DNA from: Desulforhabdus amnigena
GTDB taxonomy: Bacteria; Desulfobacterota; Syntrophobacteria; Syntrophobacterales; Syntrophobacteraceae
Direction of reading: 5' to 3'
Length of the DNA stretch: 64,000 bases
Assembly (NCBI RefSeq): GCF_027925305.1
Contig: NZ_BSDR01000001.1
Location: 2,073,001 to 2,137,000 of the forward strand
The notes under the pieces were generated by a model. That model had not been told where the DNA came from. It searched no databases and saw only the letters and a list, made by a program, of their open reading frames with translations. Positions 1,658 to 13,484 of the stretch are shown here, piece by piece. A program made the translations under genes and the position numbers. Each line of letters starts with the position of its first letter. Position 1 is the first letter of the stretch.

Positions 1658-2941
1658 GTGAATATTCTTTTGCAGAACCTACGTATCACCCTCCCCGTTT
1701 TTTTCCATGTCATTGCAATGGCTTTTTCTATCCTTATGCTCCCACGTCCGGGATATTCCATCAATATCGATGAAGCCATATCCCTCGCCGAAAGAAATCT
1801 ACCATCTTATAAAGCGGCGAAACTCGAGGTCCAGTCCACGGAGAACCTCTACAAGGCATCTCTTTCCCCCTATCTCCCGAGTCTGGATACATCCACATCT
1901 CAGGAATATCACGACACAACCCCCGAAGACTTTGATCTCAACACTTACGACGTCACCCTATCCTACCTGCTCTTCGACGGGGGCAGAAGAAAAGCCAACA
2001 GGAATATCGCGGAACTGAACCTGGATATCACCCGGCAGGAACAGGACAAGAATCTGTTGGATTTGGAATTCAATGTAAAATCATCCTTTTATACTGCAAT
2101 AGCACGAAAGGAAATCCTGGAGCAGAGGAAGATCCAACTTGAGGATGCAAGGAAAGACCACGAGGTAGCGCAGGGAAGATACAAGTTTGGTGTAGCAAAA
2201 CTCTCCGACGTGCTTCAGGCTTCCGTACGACTCGAACAGGCACGGTTCAAGCTGGTCCAGGCCGAAGGCGAACTGGCCATTGGCCTCGCGAACCTCAACT
2301 CCCTTTTAGGAAGAGACCTCAACATGGTGTACGATCTCGACGGCCGTCTATCCTTTGAAATGGCCGCTCCCCACCTTGATCTTCTCTCCCAGGCGGCACT
2401 AAAACGTCCGGAAATCAAACAGGCCGAGGACCTCCTCAAGATCTCCAAACAGAACAAGTCCCTGGAGATCAGCGCTTTTTTCCCGGATATCACTGCCAAT
2501 ACAAGCTATTCACGGGCAGACGCGGACAGGGCTATCGATGACAGATCCGTTGGCATCAAAGCGACCTGGAACATTTTTGAATTGGGAAAATTCTATCGGA
2601 CAAAATCTGCTCAACTTGAAATCCATGTTTCGGAAGAGAATATAAATGAAACGATCCGCCAGCTCCTTCTCGATGTAAAGAGAGCATATGAAGATTTTCT
2701 GACGGCCTCCAAAAATATTTCCGTCGCCCAAGAGCAGCTTGCCCAGGCGGAACAGAATTATTCTCAGGCCTTTGGCGAATACAAAGTCGGGAAGGGGGAT
2801 ATACTTTCCCTCGTACAGGCGGAAAGTTTTCTCTCCACGGCGCGGGAGCAGCTCACGACCTCGAAGCTCAATCATATCCTGGCCAAATCGCTGCTCGAGC
2901 GTATTGCAGGAATCGATAAGCTGGAATCCTTCCAGTACTGA
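1658..2941 (+). CDS. TolC-family outer membrane efflux protein
   Basis: Outer-membrane exit duct of a tripartite efflux system. The start is a GTG placed about 11 bp after GGAGGT. The 427-residue product begins with a hydrophobic signal segment (residues about 8-30, ending near a GYS sequence), followed by two OEP-type repeats rich in long alpha-helices with heptad-like Ala/Leu/Gln spacing (about 40-230 and 240-420), as in TolC. A typical LDLEFNVKSSFY helix and a YDLDGRL strand segment fit the family. It is the first gene of a five-gene operon (TolC, HlyD adaptor, ABC ATPase, two permeases) and would dock on the adaptor encoded 50 bp downstream. The substrate cannot be told from sequence. Family assignment is firm; orthology to E. 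coli TolC is not implied. Confidence 0.92.
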   Translation: MNILLQNLRITLPVFFHVIAMAFSILMLPRPGYSINIDEAISLAERNLPSYKAAKLEVQSTENLYKASLSPYLPSLDTSTSQEYHDTTPEDFDLNTYDVTLSYLLFDGGRRKANRNIAELNLDITRQEQDKNLLDLEFNVKSSFYTAIARKEILEQRKIQLEDARKDHEVAQGRYKFGVAKLSDVLQASVRLEQARFKLVQAEGELAIGLANLNSLLGRDLNMVYDLDGRLSFEMAAPHLDLLSQAALKRPEIKQAEDLLKISKQNKSLEISAFFPDITANTSYSRADADRAIDDRSVGIKATWNIFELGKFYRTKSAQLEIHVSEENINETIRQLLLDVKRAYEDFLTASKNISVAQEQLAQAEQNYSQAFGEYKVGKGDILSLVQAESFLSTAREQLTTSKLNHILAKSLLERIAGIDKLESFQY

Positions 2942-2990
2942 CACATGCCTTATCCCATGACACACAGGATTACCTCGAGGAGGTTTTTCA

Positions 2991-4175
2991 GTGAAAAAAT
3001 TTTCACTCATCTTCATTCTCATCATCGCATGCAGTGCCGTCGGCTTTTTTCTCTACAAGAAGTTTTTCCCAAAATCGGAAGTAAAAGTGCTGGAATCGGC
3101 AAAGGTGGAACGGGGAAACATCCGTGGAGTCCTGGTGGAAACAGGGATCATCAAGTCTCAGGTGGGAGCTCTGGTCAAGATAGGGGCCCGCATCACGGGA
3201 ACCGTCGTTCAAATGAATGTCAAAATTGGGGACCGGGTAAAAAAGGGAGACCTGATCGCCTTGATCGACGACCGGGAAATACTGCAATCCATTCAACGCC
3301 AGAGGGCGGCCCTGGCCTCCGCTCAGAACACCTTGCTTCAGGTGGAACGGACGTATCCGGAAAGGATCAAAGAGGCACGGGCCAGTTTCACCTATAACAA
3401 ATTGAACTATGAAAGAGAACAACAGCTTATAAAGAAAGACTACACCACGGCGGACGCAGTGGATAAAGCGCGAAGCGATTTCAACGCGACTCAAGCCAAT
3501 CTGAAGAGGCTTCAGGAAGAATACAAAACTCAGGGGGATATCGCACGGGCCAATGTGGACCAAGCGGCGGCCCAGATCAAACAATTGGAAGTGAACCTTT
3601 CGTATACTAGAATTTATGCTCCCATAGACGGGCTCGTGTCCGATGTCACCATTCAAGAAGGTGAAACGATCGTCACGGGACTTCAAGTGGCGAACCTGGT
3701 CACGGTCATCGATCCGACGCTCCTCGAAATGTGGATCTATGTCGATGAAACCGATGTGGGCAAGGCAAAAACAGGGCAATCGGTGGAATACTACGTCGAT
3801 ACCTATCCGGACAGGATCTTTCATGGAACCATACACCGGCTGAATCCGGAACCCGTAGTCAAGGACAACATCGTCTACTATCTCGCCATCGTCCAGGTGC
3901 CCAAAGACGATGCAGCATTCCTAAAACCCGAGATGACCAGCCATGTCAAGATCATCTACGAAGAAAAAAGGGATATACTGACCGCACCCAATGCGGCCGT
4001 CAAATTCGAAGCGGGAAAGCAGATCGCCTACAAAGTGATCGGTCCAAACAAAGTGGAGAAGCTGGAATTGAAAACGGGCATCCGTGGGGAAGAACAAACG
4101 GAAATCGTTTCCGGAGCAACGGAAGGTGAAGTGCTGGCCACCAAGATCATATTGCCCGTCTCTTCAAAGCCTTAA
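2991..4175 (+). CDS. HlyD/MacA-type periplasmic adaptor of efflux pump
   Basis: Periplasmic membrane-fusion protein linking the inner-membrane ABC permeases to the TolC-like duct. The start is GTG with GAGGAGG 8 bp upstream. The 394-residue product has one N-terminal membrane anchor (about residues 5-22), a biotinyl-lipoyl-like half-motif around residues 60-95 (VKIGDRVKKGDLIALID), a coiled-coil hairpin (about 100-200, with QRQRAALASAQ and NVDQAAAQIKQLE heptads), the second lipoyl half near 205-230 (YAPIDGLVSDV) and a beta-barrel domain to about 310. This order is that of MacA and HlyD. It lies between the TolC-like gene and the ATPase gene in the same direction, so the partners are evident. 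Substrate unknown. Confidence 0.93.
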   Translation: MKKFSLIFILIIACSAVGFFLYKKFFPKSEVKVLESAKVERGNIRGVLVETGIIKSQVGALVKIGARITGTVVQMNVKIGDRVKKGDLIALIDDREILQSIQRQRAALASAQNTLLQVERTYPERIKEARASFTYNKLNYEREQQLIKKDYTTADAVDKARSDFNATQANLKRLQEEYKTQGDIARANVDQAAAQIKQLEVNLSYTRIYAPIDGLVSDVTIQEGETIVTGLQVANLVTVIDPTLLEMWIYVDETDVGKAKTGQSVEYYVDTYPDRIFHGTIHRLNPEPVVKDNIVYYLAIVQVPKDDAAFLKPEMTSHVKIIYEEKRDILTAPNAAVKFEAGKQIAYKVIGPNKVEKLELKTGIRGEEQTEIVSGATEGEVLATKIILPVSSKP

Positions 4176-4279
4176 AGAGATGCGGAAGCATCCCATGTGA
4201 AACAAGCACCCAAAAGGGCGAAAGAGGTTTTGAGATAGGAATTTAGAGACGTTCACAATGATCGATTCGAAAGAAAGAG

Positions 4280-4951
4280 ATGCCGTTCTGTTTCCTAAAA
4301 GACATCAGAAAAAGCTACATCATTGGGGAAGAAGAGGTTGAAATCCTCAAAGGAATCAATCTCCAGATCGAACGGGGTGAATTCACAGCCATCATGGGAA
4401 CTTCCGGTTCCGGAAAAACGACCCTGATGAACATCATCGGCTGCCTGGATGTTCCGACATCGGGCGAATATATTCTCGCGGACAAACTGGTATCCCAATT
4501 TTCCGACGATGAGCTTTCCACTTTCAGAAACGAACATATCGGTTTTATTTTTCAGAATTTCTATCTGCTCCCCTATGCAACAGTGCTGGAAAATGTTTTG
4601 CTTCCAACACTCTATACCGAGAAGCAAAAGTCGGGAGACCCCGTGAAACGGGCCATGGAATTGCTCAGGCTCGCCGGCATTGAAGACCGGGCCAAATTCA
4701 AGCCCAATCAGCTTTCGGGCGGCCAGCAGCAGCGAGTGGCCATAGCACGGGCACTGGTCAATGACCCTGAGCTCGTGCTTGCGGATGAACCTACAGGACA
4801 GCTGGACAGCAAGACGGCAAACGAAATCATGCAATTGCTCTCCGCAATGAACAGCAAGGGGAAAACGGTGATTCTCATTACGCACGACGTCAACACCGCG
4901 GCTTTTGCAAAAAGAATGATCCGGCTAAGCGACGGGCGAATCATAGAATAA
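4280..4951 (+). CDS. ABC transporter ATP-binding protein, LolD/MacB type
   Basis: Cytoplasmic ATPase of the efflux system. The 223-residue product is a single nucleotide-binding domain of normal length: Walker [10 protein letters not shown] at residues 40-48, Q-loop in [10 protein letters not shown], signature [15 protein letters not shown], Walker B plus catalytic Glu in [13 protein letters not shown], and a switch His in ITHD. The [14 protein letters not shown] and [13 protein letters not shown] segments are characteristic of the LolD/MacB/FtsE branch that partners FtsX-type permeases, which agrees with the two permease genes downstream (the first only 3 bp away). A weak purine-rich stretch precedes the ATG. 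It energises mechanotransmission rather than direct transport if it behaves like MacB. Confidence 0.95.
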
Positions 4952-4954
4952 CGC

Positions 4955-6169
4955 ATGAACCGGTTGATCAAGATCCTCCATGAAGCGGGCAAAGCCGCTA
5001 TAGCCTTTAAATTAAGGACTATTTTCTGCCTGACCAGCGTGGCGCTTGGGGTTTCCTCCATCACCATCATCGTGGCTGCAACGGAAGGGGCTTACAAGAC
5101 CGCCTATGATATGGTCGAAATGTTTGGGCCTGACGCTCTCCTGGTAGTGGGGGGAAGCGAGGAATCGAGGGCAATCGGCCAGAGGGAAAAAACCATTACC
5201 CTCGATGATGTTATTGCCATCAAGGAAGCGTTCCCCAGCGCCTACGTGGTGGTGCCCATGACTTCCGTCCGCGATGTAACGGTCTCCTACAAAAACAAGA
5301 AAAATCAAACTCTCGTGGTGGGTTCAACGGCAGATTACAGCCGCGCGTGGACCTGGCCCGTCGTAGAGGGCTCCGATCTCACGCTGGAGGATGTAAAGGG
5401 CCTTCGCAATGTGGGTCTCATCGGCCCCTACCTCGCGGACCAACTTTTCGGACCTGAAGAACCCGTTGGGAAATATATCCTCGTCAAAAACATCCCCGTT
5501 CAGATTGTCGGCGTACTTTCATCGCGAGGGACCACCCCGACAGGGGCAAACCTCGATGACCGCATCATCATGCCCATCAGCACCGTGATGCGAAAGATTC
5601 AAAACGAGACAAAGTATGTGTCGGTGCTTCGGGCCAGATTCGTGGACCCCAGCCGGCTCGAAGAATATTCGGAAGAAATCCGGCTTTTCCTCAGGCAGAG
5701 GCACAGGCTTGCCGAGGAGGAACCGGATGACTTCCGAGTCATTTCCCCCAAGGAAATCACGAAATTCCTTGTGGCGCTCACGGGTTCCCTCGTGGTGTTT
5801 CTGGGAATCGTGGGGGTGATTTCTCTCATTGTGGCGGGGTTCGTATTGGCCAATCTCTTTCTTCTCTCCGTTCGGGAACGAACACGGGAAATCGGCATCA
5901 GAAGATCGGTTGGCGCCAGGAAAAGCGACATTCGTCTTCAGTTTCTGTTCGAAGCCGTCATCATTACGACCCTGGGCGGCCTGGCCGGGTTCATCCTGGC
6001 TCTGGGGGGAGCCAAACTTCTGACCCTTGTCGCTGACTTTCCCATCCACTTTTCGTGGAAAGCCTTCGCCACAGGATTGTTGCTCGCGTGGGCCGTAGGG
6101 ATCGGATTCGGCTTGCAACCGGCTTCCAGCGCCGCCAACCTGGAACCCATCGAGGCGTTGAGAAGATGA
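4955..6169 (+). CDS. FtsX/MacB-type ABC permease, first of pair
   Basis: Inner-membrane permease of 404 residues with the MacB architecture: one N-terminal transmembrane helix (about 20-42), a large periplasmic core domain (about 45-260, containing the conserved [10 protein letters not shown] and [19 protein letters not shown] segments), then three C-terminal helices (about 270-400) with the FtsX motif [13 protein letters not shown]. It starts 3 bp after the ATPase and its TGA overlaps the ATG of the next permease, so the two permeases are translationally coupled. Two different permeases suggest a heterodimer in place of the MacB homodimer. No ATPase domain is fused, in contrast to MacB itself. 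Confidence 0.93.
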
Positions 6170-7389
6170 GACGGATCATTTTGAATCTCAAGATCGCCCT
6201 GCGTTCCCTGTACAGCTTCAAACTCAGGACGTCCCTCGCAGTCCTGGGTGTTTTTCTGGGAACATTCTCCCTCATTCTCGTTTCCAACCTGACAGACTCT
6301 CTTGTAAAAAAGGGGGAAATGGAAATCGAGAAGCTCGGCAAGAACCTCCTGGTGGTCCGGAGCGGCACCGTGCTTCGATTCGGAGCAAGCACACGGTTGC
6401 TGACTCAGGCCACCACTTTGACCCTGGAGGACGCCAAAGCCCTGGAAGATCAATCCCCCTTTGTTCACCGTGCCTCTCCGTCGAGTTCAAAACCCTTTCC
6501 GGTCCGCTCCCGAAACACGACACTCTCCGCCATCCTAGTCACGGGAGTCACGGCGGACTATCCGGATATCCGAAACTTTCATGTTCAGGAGGGCACTTTT
6601 TTTTCACCGGCAGACGATCAGGAACTCGCTAGAGTGGCGGTGCTCGGAAAGAAGGTCGCGGAAAAACTTTTCGGGGATAAAAGCCCCCTCGGAAAATACA
6701 TCCTGATCTGGCGCGTCCCCTGCCAGGTCATAGGGGTGATGGAAGAAAAAGGAGTGGATGTCTCGAATGTCGACCAGGACAATCAAATATTCATTCCGGT
6801 CAATTCGTTTCTCAGGCGTTTTGTCAATCAGGAATATGTGAATACGATTTTTGTCCAGACCACCAGTTCGGAAAATATGTCCCGTGCCAAAACGCAGATA
6901 GAAGGAATCCTGAGAAAAAGGCACAAGATCCGGGAGGGTCAGAAGGACGATTTCACTGTGATCGATTCAAAGGATGTGATGGCTCTCAAGACTCAAGCCA
7001 CATCCATGATCAGCATCCTCGGACGGATATCGGCGACTGTCTCTTTTTTGATCGGAGCCCTCGGGATTTTGTCCATCATGATTCTCATCGTGAACGAGCG
7101 GAGAGTGGAAATCGGCATCAGGCGGGCCGTGGGATCTCGAAAAAGGGACATTGTTCTGCAATTTCTCATGGAGTCCTCGTTCATCTCCCTCATAGGAGGC
7201 ATGGTCGGGGTTGTGTTTGGCTTTCTGGTCAGTATTCTTGTTTTCGAGGTTTCAAAGCTCCCCTTCAGTATTTCCCTCATCGGGTTTGTCATTTCTTTTG
7301 TAGCTTCCGTGACGGTCGGCATATTGGCTGGAATCTACCCCTCCAAAAAAGCGACGACCATCCAGCCCGTGGACATCATTCGGTCCTGA
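6166..7389 (+). CDS. FtsX/MacB-type ABC permease, second of pair
   Basis: 407-residue permease paralogous to the preceding gene: N-terminal helix (about 18-40), periplasmic core domain with KLFGDKSPLGKYILIW and CQVIGVMEEKG segments, and three C-terminal helices with RRVEIGIRRAVGSRKRD. I chose the ATG at 6166 because it overlaps the preceding stop (ATGA) and gives the standard N-terminus; the frame extends upstream to 6055 but that part lies inside the previous gene. It completes the tripartite efflux operon. The similarity to its neighbour (same YILIW/YILVK and EIGIRR signatures) points to duplication within the operon. Confidence 0.92.
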   Translation: MRRIILNLKIALRSLYSFKLRTSLAVLGVFLGTFSLILVSNLTDSLVKKGEMEIEKLGKNLLVVRSGTVLRFGASTRLLTQATTLTLEDAKALEDQSPFVHRASPSSSKPFPVRSRNTTLSAILVTGVTADYPDIRNFHVQEGTFFSPADDQELARVAVLGKKVAEKLFGDKSPLGKYILIWRVPCQVIGVMEEKGVDVSNVDQDNQIFIPVNSFLRRFVNQEYVNTIFVQTTSSENMSRAKTQIEGILRKRHKIREGQKDDFTVIDSKDVMALKTQATSMISILGRISATVSFLIGALGILSIMILIVNERRVEIGIRRAVGSRKRDIVLQFLMESSFISLIGGMVGVVFGFLVSILVFEVSKLPFSISLIGFVISFVASVTVGILAGIYPSKKATTIQPVDIIRS

Positions 7390-7504
7390 GGCCATGCCTC
7401 GTTTGGATCTCATGATCGAGGGGAGGGGACGACAGAGGATAAAAAGACGGCAAAGAGTTGGGGGCGATGGGAGAAGCAGAAAAAGCTATGGAAGAGGGCT
7501 CATC

Positions 7505-7948
7505 ATGAGCCATAAGTCCTTTGCAGTCGGCGAGGATATAAAGACACTTCGTTTACCGGCAAGCATAGATTCCCTGGAAAAATTCCGCGCATTCTTACTG
7601 CAGGAAATCAACCCGCGAAATGTGCCGGAGGATTTGATCCACAAGATCGAACTGGTTCTGGAGGAGCTGCTTGCCAATGTGATTCATTACGCCTATCCGG
7701 ATATCCAAGGCGAGGTGGCTGTCGCGTGTTTTATGGAGGGAGGGGAAAAATTCTCCCTGGTGATCCAGGATTGGGGACGCCCATTCAATCCATTCGATCA
7801 AGAAAACCCAGATATTTTTGAAGATATCCGCGACCGTGTAATTGGAGGGCTTGGAATCTTGCTGGTCCGGAGTATGGCCGACGAATACAGCTACAGACGC
7901 CGGGGGGAGACAAACATCGTTAAGGTGAGTTTCAAATTACGGCATTGA
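7505..7948 (+). CDS. RsbW/SpoIIAB-like ATP-binding anti-sigma or switch kinase
   Basis: 147-residue histidine-kinase-fold ATPase (HATPase_c_2). The N-box reads EELLANVIHYAY, the G1 box DWGRPFNP and the G2 box GGLGILLVRSMADEYSY. In partner-switching systems such proteins phosphorylate a STAS antagonist on Ser/Thr and bind a sigma factor or other target. A STAS gene lies only 20 bp away on the opposite strand and a SpoIIE-type phosphatase 3.7 kb downstream, so the three switch components are present. I chose the ATG at 7505 (GAGGGCTC upstream); the frame could start as far up as 7394, but that extension is Arg/Gly-rich and unlike the family. The target is unknown; no sigma factor gene is adjacent. 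Confidence 0.87.
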   Translation: MSHKSFAVGEDIKTLRLPASIDSLEKFRAFLLQEINPRNVPEDLIHKIELVLEELLANVIHYAYPDIQGEVAVACFMEGGEKFSLVIQDWGRPFNPFDQENPDIFEDIRDRVIGGLGILLVRSMADEYSYRRRGETNIVKVSFKLRH

Positions 7949-7968
7949 AGGGAGCTTTCCCCGAGGAA

Positions 7969-8301
7969 TCAAAAATCGTTCAAAGCTTCTTCCTGGGTCG
8001 CATGCAGGCGGAATATGGTATCGAACCCCGAAATTTCGAATACTTCCCGTACATAGTCTTTGAGGGAAGAAAAGGAGATTTGTCCTTCGCTGCTTTTCAG
8101 CGTCTTGGCGGCTTTCAACAAGACACGCAATCCCGCGCTGGAAATGTAGTCCAAATCCTGGAAGTCCAGAACAAATTTACTTTCCCCCTTCCGGATCAGG
8201 TCGAACAACTCCTTTTCAAATTCGGGTGAAGTATTGGCATCCAAACGCCCCCTGCACAACAAGATGATGACATCATTCCGTCTTTTTTGAAGGACATCCA
8301 T
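7969..8301 (-). CDS. STAS-domain anti-sigma-factor antagonist (RsbV/SpoIIAA-like)
   Basis: 110-residue single STAS domain. The segment DLDYISSAGLRVLL carries the conserved Ser-Ser pair that is the phosphorylation site in SpoIIAA/RsbV, and the N-terminal CRGRLDANTSPEFEKEL matches the family's first strand and helix. It converges tail to tail with the RsbW-like gene (20 bp between stops) and would be its substrate; the SpoIIE phosphatase at 11634 would reverse the phosphorylation. Length is typical. The opposite orientation to the other switch genes means it has its own promoter in the 8302-8500 gap, shared back to back with the ABC exporter gene. Confidence 0.9.
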   Translation of the reverse strand: MDVLQKRRNDVIILLCRGRLDANTSPEFEKELFDLIRKGESKFVLDFQDLDYISSAGLRVLLKAAKTLKSSEGQISFSSLKDYVREVFEISGFDTIFRLHATQEEALNDF

Positions 8302-8500
8302 GCAACTTGCCTCCCCTGGAAAGAACAGTTATTCGGACTTTGATTCATGTTCCGGTCGAAAAGAATCACGGCCGGTATCCAATCGATTCAATAAAAATAT
8401 AAGAACCTTGCTCTACCGTCAACGCACCGATGGACATATTCCACAGGGTCTGGATCTCAAAGCCCCGATAAGCACTACATAGTCTAAGGATCAAAGGATA

Positions 8501-11011
8501 ATGATGATTACAAAACGCCCGCTCAGCTACTGGGTCAAAACCAGCAGCATACGGCTGCAAGCCGCTCTTTTGATCGTAATCGCAGTGACCGTATTTGTGC
8601 GAGTGCTTCCATTGGAACTGCAGAAGCGAATCATCAACAAGGCTATCGGGCTCAAAGAGATCGATTTGCTTTTGACATATTGCGCCCTCTACCTGGCGGC
8701 CGTGGTTGTCGCCGGGGGACTGAAGTTTGCCATCAATGCGATCCAAACTTATATCAGCCAACATGCGCTCGCCAAAATTCGCAAGGAACTCTACTCGCAT
8801 ATCCTTTCCCTCCCTTTAAGCTTCTTTCGCCAGGCTTCCTCGGGCATGGTGGTCTCTTCCGTTGTCACGGAAGTCGTGGCCGCAAGCGAATTCGTCGGGC
8901 AGGCGGTGGCGGTACCCGTAACCAATCTGCTCACTCTGATGGCCTTTGCAGGATATATGTTTTACCTGAACCCGCTCCTGGCGGGTCTGAGCATCGTCAT
9001 CTATCCCCTTATTCTCCTCATCATTCCCAGCATGCAAAAGCGTTCCAATAAAGCCAACAAGGAACGCGTCGACATCACCCGCACCCTCAGCAGCAGAATC
9101 GGAGAAACGGTCTCTGGAATTCACGAAGTTCACGCCAACGCCGGCTATGAGATCGAAAATCGAAAATACGGACGGTTGGTGGATGAACTTCTCAAAGTGC
9201 GCGTCGTCTGGAATCTCTATAAATTCGGCATCAAGGCCATCAACAACTTCTTTCAAAATTTGGGACCCTTCATCCTTTTTGTGGTGGGCGGTTATTTGAC
9301 GATAAAAGGGCGTTTCGATCTCGGCGCACTGGTGGCGTTTCTCTCTACCTATGAAAAAATCTATGATCCGTGGAAAGAGCTGATGGACTTTTATCAGACC
9401 TATCAAGATGCTCATGTGAGCTACAAGAGACTCATGGAATACTTCGACTATAAACCGCAACACGCACTCAAAGCGCCCGACCGCCCTCCCTTGCACCTTG
9501 ACGGCAATATACAGATCAAGGAGCTCACCTTCAGTACTCCAGGGGGGACTCAACTCCTCAAGGGCATCCATATGGATCTCAAGCGGGGAGAGCAGCTCGC
9601 TCTCGTAGGTTTTTCCGGCAGCGGCAAAACCACTTTGATCCAGTGTATCGCCCAACTTTACAGTTATACGGGAGGGAGCATCCTGATCGATGACCAGGAA
9701 GTTTCGGGTCTGACCAAGTACGATATTGCGCAAAACGTGGGAATCGTGTCGCAGACCCACTATATTTTTGATGGGACAATCAGGGAAAACCTCCTTTATT
9801 CATGCGAATCGTTGGTGGGAAAAGATGACGGCCCATTGCCCACAGTGGACGAGATGATCGAAGTGGTCCAGCAGGTAGGTCTTTTTATCGATGTGCTCCG
9901 TTTCGGGCTCGAGGCCATACTGCCCATCCATGAAGAAGAAGAGCTGGTTTCAAGGCTCATACGGGTGCGGGAAAACTTCCAAAAGCATTTCAGTGAAACC
10001 CTGCGCGACGATGTTGAATTCTTCGACGAGCACCGTTACCTCTATTTTTCCTCCATCGCAACCAATCTCACCTTCGGCAATGCAAACATCGATGCCTTCT
10101 CACAAGAAAACCTGTCCACCAACTCGTATTTCCTGGATTTCCTGGATAAAGTTCAGCTCAAGATGCCTCTGATCCATCTTGGAAGAGAACTTGCCATTCA
10201 GGCAATCGATATTTTGGGAGACTTGCCGCCCGATGAGGTTTTTTTCGAGCAAAGTCCCATATCTATTGAAGAATTGAATGATTACAAGAAAGTGTCGGCT
10301 CATGCCAAGGATTTGAGCCTTTCCGCCCTGACGGAAGATGATCGGAGCCGGCTGCTCAAGCTCGCTCTCCGCTTCAATCCCGGAACACACAAGATGGTGG
10401 ATCTCCCTCAGATCCTGGAGCCGATGATTCTGGAAGGCCGGTTTCTTTTTATGAAGAAAATCCAAGCGGAACGACCGGATGCGATCACTTTTTATCGAAT
10501 GTCCGATTATATCCACTCCCAGACGATCCTGGACAACATTCTCTTCGGGAAGGCAAGGACCGAGCGTCCCAAGGCACAGGAAAACATCTATCACAGCATC
10601 ATCCAGCTTCTCATCGAGGAAGACCTCCTGGAAAAAATTCTCGAAATTGGGATGCATTTCAACGTGGGAACCAAAGGGGACCGCCTTTCGGGAGGCCAGC
10701 GCCAAAAGCTGGCCATCGCGCGGGTCCTCCTGAAGAAACCATCCATTCTGATCATGGATGAGGCGACTTCGGGCCTGGACAATGCCTCGCAAAAGCGAAT
10801 CCAGAACCTCCTCGACACCAAATGGAAGGGACGGAGTACGATCATTTCCGTGGTGCACCGTTTGGAGATGATAAAGGATTTTGAAAAAGTGGCCGTCATG
10901 AAAGGCGGCAAAATCGTGGAAATTGGAACCTATGACGAACTGATGGCAAAAAAAGGGATGCTCTTTGAACTCGTAGGCGGAGGAAAAACAAGTGCCCGGA
11001 GAATACCATGA
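8501..11011 (+). CDS. ABC exporter with enlarged nucleotide-binding domain
   Basis: 836-residue fused exporter (transmembrane domain plus ATPase), about 240 residues longer than usual half-size exporters. Six helices occupy about 15-310. The ATPase has Walker A GFSGSGKTT (370-378), Q-loop Gln418, signature LSGGQRQ (from 729), Walker B ILIMDEATSGLD and switch His in VVHRLE. Normally about 60 residues separate the Q-loop and the signature; here there are about 310. Within this stretch a post-Q-loop motif is repeated three times: TIRENLLYS (426), SIATNLTFG (518) and TILDNILFG (675), each followed by a helical stretch, so the alpha-helical subdomain looks triplicated and diverged. The reading frame is intact and codon use is even, so this is not an assembly accident. 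A cyclic-nucleotide-binding protein gene overlaps its end by 20 bp. Substrate unknown. Confidence 0.93.
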   Translation: MMITKRPLSYWVKTSSIRLQAALLIVIAVTVFVRVLPLELQKRIINKAIGLKEIDLLLTYCALYLAAVVVAGGLKFAINAIQTYISQHALAKIRKELYSHILSLPLSFFRQASSGMVVSSVVTEVVAASEFVGQAVAVPVTNLLTLMAFAGYMFYLNPLLAGLSIVIYPLILLIIPSMQKRSNKANKERVDITRTLSSRIGETVSGIHEVHANAGYEIENRKYGRLVDELLKVRVVWNLYKFGIKAINNFFQNLGPFILFVVGGYLTIKGRFDLGALVAFLSTYEKIYDPWKELMDFYQTYQDAHVSYKRLMEYFDYKPQHALKAPDRPPLHLDGNIQIKELTFSTPGGTQLLKGIHMDLKRGEQLALVGFSGSGKTTLIQCIAQLYSYTGGSILIDDQEVSGLTKYDIAQNVGIVSQTHYIFDGTIRENLLYSCESLVGKDDGPLPTVDEMIEVVQQVGLFIDVLRFGLEAILPIHEEEELVSRLIRVRENFQKHFSETLRDDVEFFDEHRYLYFSSIATNLTFGNANIDAFSQENLSTNSYFLDFLDKVQLKMPLIHLGRELAIQAIDILGDLPPDEVFFEQSPISIEELNDYKKVSAHAKDLSLSALTEDDRSRLLKLALRFNPGTHKMVDLPQILEPMILEGRFLFMKKIQAERPDAITFYRMSDYIHSQTILDNILFGKARTERPKAQENIYHSIIQLLIEEDLLEKILEIGMHFNVGTKGDRLSGGQRQKLAIARVLLKKPSILIMDEATSGLDNASQKRIQNLLDTKWKGRSTIISVVHRLEMIKDFEKVAVMKGGKIVEIGTYDELMAKKGMLFELVGGGKTSARRIP

Positions 11012-11483
11012 AAACCTGGAAATACTAATGGAAATCCCCTTGTTTTCAGGGATACCCATCGAACCCTTCAAGGTGCTGGCCTACCTTTGCCAAAGAAGGT
11101 CCTTCCAACCGGGAGAGATCCTTTTTGCAGAGCAGGAAGTAGACCCTCAGGCCTATCTGATTCTGGAAGGCAAAGCGAGGCTCTTGATGCAAAAGAACGG
11201 GGATGCGATACTTCGACGAGTCGGAGAGATGGATTTCATCGGGGGGTTCTCCCTTTTTTGTGACATGAAACGCCTCTTCACCTTGCAGGCCGAGTCGAAA
11301 GTGAAATGTCTCGTCATCACCAGGGAAAAATTTCAAAAGACCCTGACTCAGTTTCCCTCTGCCGGCAACAAGGTTTTTGAGAGGCTCGCATGGAGCATCT
11401 ACGAATGGGAATCAAATTTTATCAGCGAACATGTTCCAAGCTGCGAAAATTGTAAACGAAGTCTGGGAGTCAGCCTGCTGTAA
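10992..11483 (+). CDS. Cyclic-nucleotide-binding-domain protein without DNA-binding domain
   Basis: 163-residue protein starting at a GTG that overlaps the ABC exporter gene by 20 bp, indicating translational coupling. Residues about 15-130 form a cNMP-binding fold as in Crp (LFSGIPIEPFKVLAYLC, FQPGEILFAEQEVDPQAYLILEGKARLL, ESKVKCLVITREKF). The phosphate-binding cassette is not well conserved (VGEMDFIGGFSLF replaces the usual GE-ALL-R-A pattern), so nucleotide binding is doubtful. No helix-turn-helix follows; the tail holds a CENCK motif. It may be a regulatory subunit for the exporter. Name of ligand and role are inference. Confidence 0.83.
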   Translation: MPGEYHENLEILMEIPLFSGIPIEPFKVLAYLCQRRSFQPGEILFAEQEVDPQAYLILEGKARLLMQKNGDAILRRVGEMDFIGGFSLFCDMKRLFTLQAESKVKCLVITREKFQKTLTQFPSAGNKVFERLAWSIYEWESNFISEHVPSCENCKRSLGVSLL

Positions 11484-11633: not shown

Positions 11634-13484
11634 ATGTTGAAGATTAAGACCATGCAACAGCGCCTCTCGCTCTTTTTGCTGCTGCCGGTAGCCGTCTTGC
11701 TCCTGGCCATGGGCTTGATGATTTTCCTCTATGTGAGAAACAACCTGATCGCCCAGTGGAAAAATACGGCCGTTCTGTCCCTGGCGCATGCGGCCCATGA
11801 CGTGGACATGCGTCTGGCCAAGCCGAAGGACTGGATGAAGATGTATCACAATACGGCTGGAGAACCGGAGGCGGATTTTATCCGGGAATGGCTGATCAAA
11901 CAGTTGGAGGACGTCGGAGGGGTCGATCGCGTCGAACTGGTCAAATTGGATAAAGGCTTCAAGGCTGTTTCGCAACTGGATCGATGCATTCTTTCACCAA
12001 AAGCAGAAAATTGCTACATGTGGCGTCGGGGAGCCTCCCGTCCACAGGAAAGAGCATGGATGGGGATGATGGATTTTGAGCGGGCGGAAATAGCTGACAT
12101 TACCCTTCCCCGCTACGATACGCTGGTGGAGCACGAGACAGTCTCTCTCTCCTCCGATCTTCTCAATAAGGAGGGAAAGGCCGTCAGCCGCCTTGAAGTG
12201 GTCATTCGCTTCAAATATCTCATTGAGGGCGCCTTGTCCGCTGCTCAGTCAGCGAACGAGAGAGCCTTTTTGGTGAGTGAAAAAGGGAAAGTGCTTGCCT
12301 GCAGCATTGCCGAGAAAACGGAGGAGACCTGCTACACAGATGCGGTCAAGGCGGCCATAAAGGACATGCAGCAAGAACCGTCGGCAGGAAATATCCTTTT
12401 GCCGAAAGATGCACCTGACGAGATCGTCGGCTTTTACAAACTCAAAGAGGCCCCCTGGAGCCTGGTCGTGGTGGCCCACAAAAAAGACATTTTGGCTCCT
12501 CTTCTGCGCTTTCGTGCGATTTATTTTCTTATACTGGCCGGCTTTCTTCTTTTTATTCTCCTGTTGATTCGGCTTGTGGCGGGGCGGGCCGTTTCTTTCA
12601 TTCGAAAAGTTTCAGACGCAGCCGCAAACGTAGCTCAGGGACATTTCGACACCCTTCTCCCTGTTGCAAGAGAAGATGAAGTGGGGCAATTGATTCGAAG
12701 CTTTAATCAGATGGTCTTGCAGCTCGATGAACGGCTGAGATTGAAGGAAGCTCTGGACCTCGCCATGCAAGTGCAGCAGAACCTGCTCCCTGAAAAACCG
12801 CCTGAAATAGCGGGGCTGGATCTGGCGGGCGCAAGCATCTATTGTGATGAAACGGGAGGTGATTATTACGACTTTCTTAGCTTTTCCGAATGGCAAGGCC
12901 GGGTGGGCATAGCTGTGGGAGACGTCGCAGGGCACGGCATATCCGCTGCCCTGTTCATGACCACGGCCCGGGCCCTCTTGCGGAGCAGGATCACTCAGCC
13001 AGGACGCCTTTCGGATGTCATGAACGACGTGAACCGCCTCCTTTGCATGGATACATCCAGGACGGGCGACTTCATGAGCCTCTTTCTGGCAGTATTGGAC
13101 CTCCGGCGGAATACAATCCACTGGGTGAGGGCGGGGCATGCTCCCGGCCTCGTATACGATTGGGAAACCGACTCCTTCGAGGAACTGCGGGGCGAAGGGA
13201 TAACCCTCGGCTTGGACGAAACCCGTCCTTTCAAGGAATACGAATACAGCGGCTGGAATAGGTCGAAGGTTCTGTTCATTGGAACGGACGGAATCTGGGA
13301 AACGGAAAATCCCCAGGGGGATGCGTTTGGCATGGATCGGCTGAGGGCGGTCATTCGGCGGCACTGCCACGAACCGTCCGGCGAAATCATTCGCGCCATA
13401 ACAGAGGACCTTGCAGCGTTCCGCCAGACAAAACAACAGGAAGATGACATCACGCTGGTGGTGGCAAAAGTCAAACCAGAATGA
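11634..13484 (+). CDS. Membrane SpoIIE-family (PP2C) phosphatase with HAMP domain
   Basis: 616-residue sensor phosphatase. A first transmembrane helix (about 14-36), a periplasmic sensing domain (about 37-293, dCache-like by position, with a YKLKEAPWSLVVVAHK end typical of such domains), a second helix (about 295-318), a HAMP linker (about 317-368, DEVGQLIRSFNQM) and a C-terminal PP2C/SpoIIE domain (about 385-616) with metal-binding Asp residues in ETGGDYYDF, VGDVAGHGISAALFMT and GTDGIWE. Preceded by GAGGAAGAG 5-8 bp before the ATG. It would dephosphorylate the STAS protein encoded at 7969 in response to an extracellular signal. Last gene on this strand before a converging gene 9 bp away. Confidence 0.92.
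   Translation: MLKIKTMQQRLSLFLLLPVAVLLLAMGLMIFLYVRNNLIAQWKNTAVLSLAHAAHDVDMRLAKPKDWMKMYHNTAGEPEADFIREWLIKQLEDVGGVDRVELVKLDKGFKAVSQLDRCILSPKAENCYMWRRGASRPQERAWMGMMDFERAEIADITLPRYDTLVEHETVSLSSDLLNKEGKAVSRLEVVIRFKYLIEGALSAAQSANERAFLVSEKGKVLACSIAEKTEETCYTDAVKAAIKDMQQEPSAGNILLPKDAPDEIVGFYKLKEAPWSLVVVAHKKDILAPLLRFRAIYFLILAGFLLFILLLIRLVAGRAVSFIRKVSDAAANVAQGHFDTLLPVAREDEVGQLIRSFNQMVLQLDERLRLKEALDLAMQVQQNLLPEKPPEIAGLDLAGASIYCDETGGDYYDFLSFSEWQGRVGIAVGDVAGHGISAALFMTTARALLRSRITQPGRLSDVMNDVNRLLCMDTSRTGDFMSLFLAVLDLRRNTIHWVRAGHAPGLVYDWETDSFEELRGEGITLGLDETRPFKEYEYSGWNRSKVLFIGTDGIWETENPQGDAFGMDRLRAVIRRHCHEPSGEIIRAITEDLAAFRQTKQQEDDITLVVAKVKPE

Follow-up and report, generated by a model that had tools for sequence, protein, structure and literature searches.

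The exporter locus

The window, a stretch of 64,000 nucleotides from Desulforhabdus amnigena, contains a gene for an ABC exporter half-transporter and, directly behind it on the same strand, a gene for a protein with a single cNMP-binding-fold domain (Table 1). The two genes share 20 bp (10992-11011), as the initial annotation had stated. Genes for RsbW-like and STAS-domain proteins on one side and for a HAMP-SpoIIE phosphatase on the other flank this pair, and a similar partner-switch set lies beside many relatives.

Table 1. Features of the exporter locus; positions are counted from the first nucleotide of the window and residues are those of the exporter.
Feature	Residues	Positions	Strand	Basis and remarks
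RsbW-like HATPase_c_2 protein		7394..7948	+	Pfam; recurs near many relatives
STAS-domain protein		7969..8301	-	Pfam; recurs near many relatives
ABC exporter half-transporter with triplicated helical-subdomain module		8501..11011	+	836 aa; triplication supported by profile comparison
Transmembrane domain	1-320	8501..9460	+	ABC_membrane PF00664, match 41-282; helices in predicted model
Walker A GFSGSGKT	370-377	9608..9631	+	motif inspection; K376 in 44/44 intact relatives
Module A	413-471	9737..9913	+	strand, Q-loop Q418, TIRENLLY, two helices; hhalign to B and C, predicted model
Linker helix 1 with Arg490	480-497	9938..9991	+	homologous to linker helix 2, E 2e-8
Module B core	503-566	10007..10198	+	strand 505-507, IATNLTFG, helices; hhalign, VIA
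Module B extra helices	579-624	10235..10372	+	predicted model
Linker helix 2 with Arg647	639-657	10415..10471	+	homologous to linker helix 1
Module C	660-720	10478..10660	+	strand, TILDNILFG, helices leading into true signature; predicted model, hhalign
Signature LSGGQ	729-733	10685..10699	+	motif in translation
Walker B ILIMDE	749-754	10745..10762	+	E754 in 44/44 intact relatives
H-loop His786	786	10856..10858	+	motif VVHRLE from residue 784
Partner, single cNMP-binding-fold domain protein		10992..11483	+	163 aa; PF00027, E 3e-16
HAMP-SpoIIE phosphatase		11634..13484	+	Pfam; recurs near a few relatives

The exporter reading frame has no internal stop, and the match of its transmembrane domain to PF00664 (E 8e-29) is above the Pfam cut-off. 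The match of the ABC ATPase domain is split into two stretches. Walker A (GSGKTT from residue 373), the Q-loop glutamine, the signature, the Walker B glutamate (ILIMDEATSG from residue 749) and the H-loop are all present in the nucleotide-binding domain (NBD), confirming the earlier view that the frame is intact and that all catalytic motifs survive. By each sequence and fold criterion examined, the window protein is a type IV ABC exporter. Its score of 316.6 bits against the MsbA lipid A exporter equivalog TIGR02203 is below the cut-off of 602. The protein, an MsbA-like half-exporter, presumably works as an ATP-driven homodimer. The aromatic A-loop residue that usually precedes Walker A is apparently absent in the family (FSTP, FTVA; residues 339-349 of the window exporter, positions 9515-9547).

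Three homologous modules between Q-loop and signature

In the window exporter, 311 residues separate Q418 from the LSGGQ signature at residue 729. Six PF00664 exporters are encoded in the same genome, two of them with the insert and four ordinary, and in the four ordinary ones this spacing is about 55-57 residues (56 in the one that was measured, the other three being taken from match positions). The figures given at first, about 310 residues against roughly 60, were close. The spacing amounts to 309-336 residues in the 44 catalytically intact relatives and to 353 in two rhizobial relatives.

Copies of a TIxxNLxFG element are found at residues 426 (TIRENLLYS), 519 (IATNLTFG) and 675 (TILDNILFG); the second had been placed at 518, which counts one residue more. 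Profiles built from 57 related sequences were compared with hhalign for three units comprising residues 404-503 (A), 498-660 (B) and 655-750 (C). Unit B matched unit C with a probability of 97.5% (E 7e-12), A matched C with 96.6% (E 6e-10) and A matched B with 95% (E 4e-8), while all of the 24 comparisons of the three units with eight other segments of the protein remained at or below 1.2%. Likewise, with smaller profiles of 46 sequences, column-shuffled controls scored at most 21 as compared to 34-83 for the observed pairs. The common core of the modules extends over 51-66 columns in register. It starts with a short strand, followed by x-x-Y/F-I/L, by T/S-I-x-x-N-L/I-x-F/Y-G and, behind a linker, by a helical stretch that ends in a GL-like turn. 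In single-sequence Smith-Waterman comparisons, copies 2 and 3 alone scored above all 500 shuffles.

The two linker helices are homologous as well, with their invariant arginines aligned. Linker helix 2 also aligned in register with the true signature helix, with a weak score of 12-15 against a background maximum of 13. Three asparagines, one per module (Asn430, Asn522 and Asn679), and the linker residues Arg490 and Arg647 are invariant in all 57 proteins. For the 235 amino acids of the middle part, sequence searches found no convincing Pfam family and no sequence relative in the PDB.

The similarity among the three segments, on which the proposed repeated duplication inside the ATPase domain depended, is thus present in the profile comparison. 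It is strongly supported by these alignments that the segment following the Q-loop, with its strand, TIxxNLxFG element and following helices, has been tandemly triplicated, the copies being joined by the two homologous linker helices. Structural comparison lends the duplication modest support, at module B.

Predicted structure of the ATPase domain

The full-length AlphaFold model has a mean pLDDT of 82, with most of the insert above 90. The NBD of TAP1 aligned with 248 of its 252 residues at 2.1 Å (Z 31) across residues 321-828 of the model, and the NBD of ComA with 239 of 239 residues at 1.8 Å across residues 331-826. Since both align over about their whole length, the canonical NBD is complete around the extra modules in the predicted structure, and the rest has been added.

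When residues 424-728 were modelled alone, pLDDT was 90.7 and pTM 0.83. The 19 best rows of the VIA comparison with this insert-only model were all helical subdomains of exporters, such as MsbA 426-497, and they were placed on module B (about residues 511-652), over 69-75 residues at 2.5-3.3 Å and with Z scores of only 3.9-5.2. On the scale that the tool itself sets, a Z score near 5 counts as modest, and it is weak if taken alone; combined with the sequence evidence, the predicted structure supports the assignment of module B as a copy of the helical subdomain. Foldseek returned nothing at E 0.001 or better for the insert against the PDB, a result that does not show a new fold.

Distribution of the insert

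A second copy of the exporter, 51% identical to the first and with its own overlapping cNMP gene, is encoded in the same genome. Insert relatives were found in 27 of the 395 sampled genomes of the phylum and in 24 of the 39 of the order, the orders represented including Desulfovibrionales, Syntrophobacterales and Desulfobacterales. The insert aligns nearly gap-free in the paralogue and in more than 40 relatives. Outside the Desulfobacterota, where the distribution is based on plasmid records, it is carried, with about 25-29% identity, by plasmids and chromids of the alphaproteobacteria Rhizobium, Sinorhizobium, Mesorhizobium, Azospirillum, Ruegeria, Sulfitobacter and others.

No single-copy intermediates were seen among the profile matches, nearly all of which span most of the 239 insert positions, the exceptions being a few additional short matches within these proteins. 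The alphaproteobacterial sequences cluster together in the tree (SH-aLRT 91). Ordinary exporters were placed inside on long branches, so that the position of the root is not fixed.

A branch without catalytic residues

The 57 proteins compared comprise 44 catalytically intact members (the Desulfobacterota set) and 13 alphaproteobacterial members. While K376, Q418, E754 and H786 are each found in 44 of 44 proteins of the former, only one of the 13 alphaproteobacterial proteins has the Walker A lysine and one the catalytic glutamate, none has the Q-loop glutamine or the H-loop histidine, and the signature is mostly altered. As the repeat asparagines and linker arginines are retained in 57 of 57 proteins despite these losses, selection on the modules is independent of ATP hydrolysis. 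The persistence of three copies in distant relatives that have lost the catalytic residues suggests that the copies form a regulatory platform and take no part in catalysis. In 259 of the 263 plasmid records, 80% or more of the insert is covered by the match, which argues against simple decay of the alphaproteobacterial copies, although the copy of S. meliloti 1021 is split.

The exporter of Hyphomicrobiales UR115 (L105), to which the cNMP domain is fused, has kept the Walker A lysine (GPGGSGKGDL) but has lost its Q-loop, signature and H-loop; this protein is a possible intermediate in the loss of catalysis. The exporter homologue on pSymB of S. meliloti 1021 (L098) is split over two frames (6527-7255 and 6879-9293), as compared to an intact gene of 903 amino acids in strain RCAM1750.

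Glycosyltransferase, nucleotide-sugar dehydrogenase and polysaccharide deacetylase genes are found around the alphaproteobacterial copies, and a cyclase gene lies in the neighbourhood of the exporter in three rhizobial genera, Sinorhizobium, Rhizobium and Mesorhizobium. An ATPase gene downstream of the exporter in Azospirillum was considered as a source of a catalytic partner and set aside, as it is followed by substrate-binding protein and permease genes in an importer-like arrangement.

The cNMP-fold partner

The partner encoded in the window reached 59.5 bits against PF00027 (cut-off 27.5). This was its sole Pfam match, and no DNA-binding domain was matched. In 46 of the 49 distinct loci, the exporter is immediately followed on the same strand by a single-domain cNMP-fold gene, mostly with an overlap. 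The three exceptions are a contig end, a locus in which the exporter frame is broken and the cNMP gene kept (L033), and a true absence (L085), in which SpoIIE, HATPase and STAS genes flank the exporter and no cNMP gene is adjacent.

In seven alphaproteobacterial proteins, from Azospirillum, Ruegeria, Tritonibacter, Sulfitobacter and one Hyphomicrobiales strain, the cNMP domain forms the C-terminus of the exporter itself. It is encoded by the next gene in six other alphaproteobacterial members. In one, the very divergent relative on a plasmid of Methylobacterium bullatum (L106; about 850 amino acids), which has degenerate motifs and an unsure position in the tree, no cNMP domain or gene was detected. 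When two proteins that are separate elsewhere occur joined in a single chain, this is a classic sign that they are functionally linked.

The partner resembles CRP and other cNMP-binding domain proteins in its fold and its strong Pfam match, but differs from them in its single-domain architecture and in its pocket. Its phosphate-binding cassette reads FIGGFSLFCDMKRLFT, in which the arginine of CRP is kept and the ribose-contacting glutamate is replaced by glycine (FIGGFSLF, as compared to FIGELGLF in CRP). In most of the window clade, glycine, alanine or serine takes the place of this glutamate, and the arginine is usually kept. Rhizobial partners have a canonical pocket (GE...RTATV) with both the glutamate and the arginine. 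The glycine at the position of the ribose-contacting glutamate makes cAMP doubtful as a ligand, and a cyclic nucleotide may not be the ligand of the window partner. Besides one class III cyclase, the window genome encodes several cNMP domains; a cNMP signal is therefore possible in this organism, with an uncertain target at this locus.

Distance-matrix covariation of the partner gave a partial r of 0.33 with the insert and of 0.34 with the transmembrane domain. Being no stronger with the former, it gives no ground for preferring the insert as the contact site. The initial annotation had offered the cNMP-binding protein as an example of a regulator to which the enlarged domain couples the ATPase. 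The near-obligate pairing and the natural fusions lend the link to this protein strong genomic support. However, the window partner is without the canonical glutamate, and as the alphaproteobacterial branch has no working ATPase, coupling between the ATPase and a regulator cannot account for the function in full.

A putative docking platform for a regulator

The TIxxN element of ordinary exporters comes after the Q-loop and is situated at the groove into which the coupling helices dock. The presence of additional copies of this element together with a co-inherited CRP-fold partner suggests a docking or regulatory platform. We propose that the enlarged helical subdomain would serve as a platform on which the cNMP-fold partner docks and acts as a switch. 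The partner, or the state of its ligand, would alter the rotation of the helical subdomain relative to the RecA core, which would either permit or prevent closure of the NBDs and hydrolysis of ATP and thereby gate export. Platform and partner would be the same in the alphaproteobacterial branch and would act there independently of hydrolysis, as a switch or scaffold of the pseudo-ATPase type, with a role perhaps in the handling of glycans or glycolipids, as judged from the neighbouring genes.

It is somewhat probable that the triplicated helical subdomain receives the cNMP-fold partner and that its swing is controlled in this way, where both the contact and the gating are what we infer. A broader evolutionary scenario is put forward more tentatively, at slightly less than an even chance. 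Through triplication of their own helical subdomain, the exporters may have gained a domain for signal input, to be read out by a CRP-fold protein, and the branch without ATP hydrolysis may represent an ATP-independent, cyclic-nucleotide-controlled membrane pseudo-transporter in which the platform and the cNMP domain are kept, with an intact pocket in rhizobia.

In the main rival explanation, the extra modules would instead scaffold another protein, such as a glycosyltransferase, a periplasmic adaptor or the neighbouring Rsb partner-switch proteins, with the cNMP-fold protein acting on the transmembrane domain or separately. We consider this rather unlikely. The RsbW-like, STAS and SpoIIE genes that flank the window gene and many Desulfobacterota relatives would fit such a role, as would the sugar-related genes near the alphaproteobacterial copies and the finding that the distances among partners follow those of the transmembrane domain no less closely than those of the insert. 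However, these neighbours vary by clade, the paralogue in the same genome lying beside Fur-like and rubrerythrin genes, whereas the cNMP domain persists from the Desulfobacterota to the Alphaproteobacteria and becomes fused.

That the insert is an independent helical domain acquired once, with a convergent likeness of the TIxxNLxFG elements, would agree with the strength of the single-sequence comparison for copies 2 and 3 alone and with the lack of Pfam or PDB sequence relatives. It is nevertheless very improbable given the profile E-values, the alignment in register and the clean controls. Furthermore, in several genomes HMMER matched the insert profile internally a second time, and the top structural matches are exporter helical subdomains.

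We see scarcely any likelihood that the cNMP-fold gene merely encodes a co-transcribed transcription regulator, as its frequent annotation as Crp/Fnr family, for instance in S. meliloti, would imply: the window protein and the rhizobial partners (148-155 amino acids) match PF00027 alone, and seven proteins carry the domain as part of the exporter. A frameshift, chimera or decaying gene, as exemplified by the broken frame of L033 and the split copy of S. meliloti 1021 and indicated by nothing in the window gene, is ruled out for practical purposes by the same architecture in the 51%-identical paralogue and more than 40 relatives and by the catalytic motifs kept in 44 of 44 proteins of the Desulfobacterota set.

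Relation to known systems

The window exporter shares the transmembrane fold, a complete NBD and all catalytic motifs with type IV exporters such as MsbA, Sav1866, TAP, ComA and ABCB1, but differs from them in that its helical subdomain appears to contain two further copies of its own Q-loop-proximal segment, with the resulting difference in spacing from the ordinary exporters of the same genome. CFTR, with its inserted R domain, and SUR1 of KATP channels, which is not itself a transporter, are both regulated through NBD-linked elements. A regulatory docking platform in the window exporter would resemble them in this respect, whereas the element proposed here consists of copies of the NBD's own helical subdomain and has a CRP-type partner. 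In cyanobacterial or NHLP-type peptidase exporters, a CRP-like domain is fused to the exporter at the N-terminus, together with a peptidase. Such a domain belongs to the exporter in both cases; here, however, it is encoded by a separate downstream gene or fused C-terminally, no peptidase was matched, and the NBD is enlarged. No description of an exporter with a triplicated subdomain was found in the literature searched, which covered few of the subscription journals; this does not prove that none exists.

The way in which ATP binding is transmitted through the helical subdomain to the membrane domain is central to understanding the mechanism of ABC transporters. A natural family with a triplicated subdomain, a separable regulator and one non-catalytic branch would provide a way to separate coupling from hydrolysis. 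In sulfate reducers and in alphaproteobacteria associated with plants, Sinorhizobium and Rhizobium among them, it would also be a candidate for connecting cyclic-nucleotide signalling with export.

Other neighbouring genes

The paralogue in the same genome (L002 and L073, near 4,282,000) adjoins Fur/PerR-like and rubrerythrin genes, and flavodiiron-like and HD-domain-like genes recur beside the paralogue clade, all of them named by inspection. Positions 1658-7389 of the window contain a TolC-like gene, a HlyD/MacA-like gene and a gene for a MacB-type ATPase, and behind these, side by side, two genes for MacB/FtsX-like permeases. This set resembles MacAB-TolC with a split MacB and two permeases, the first three genes being named by inspection and the permeases by Pfam.
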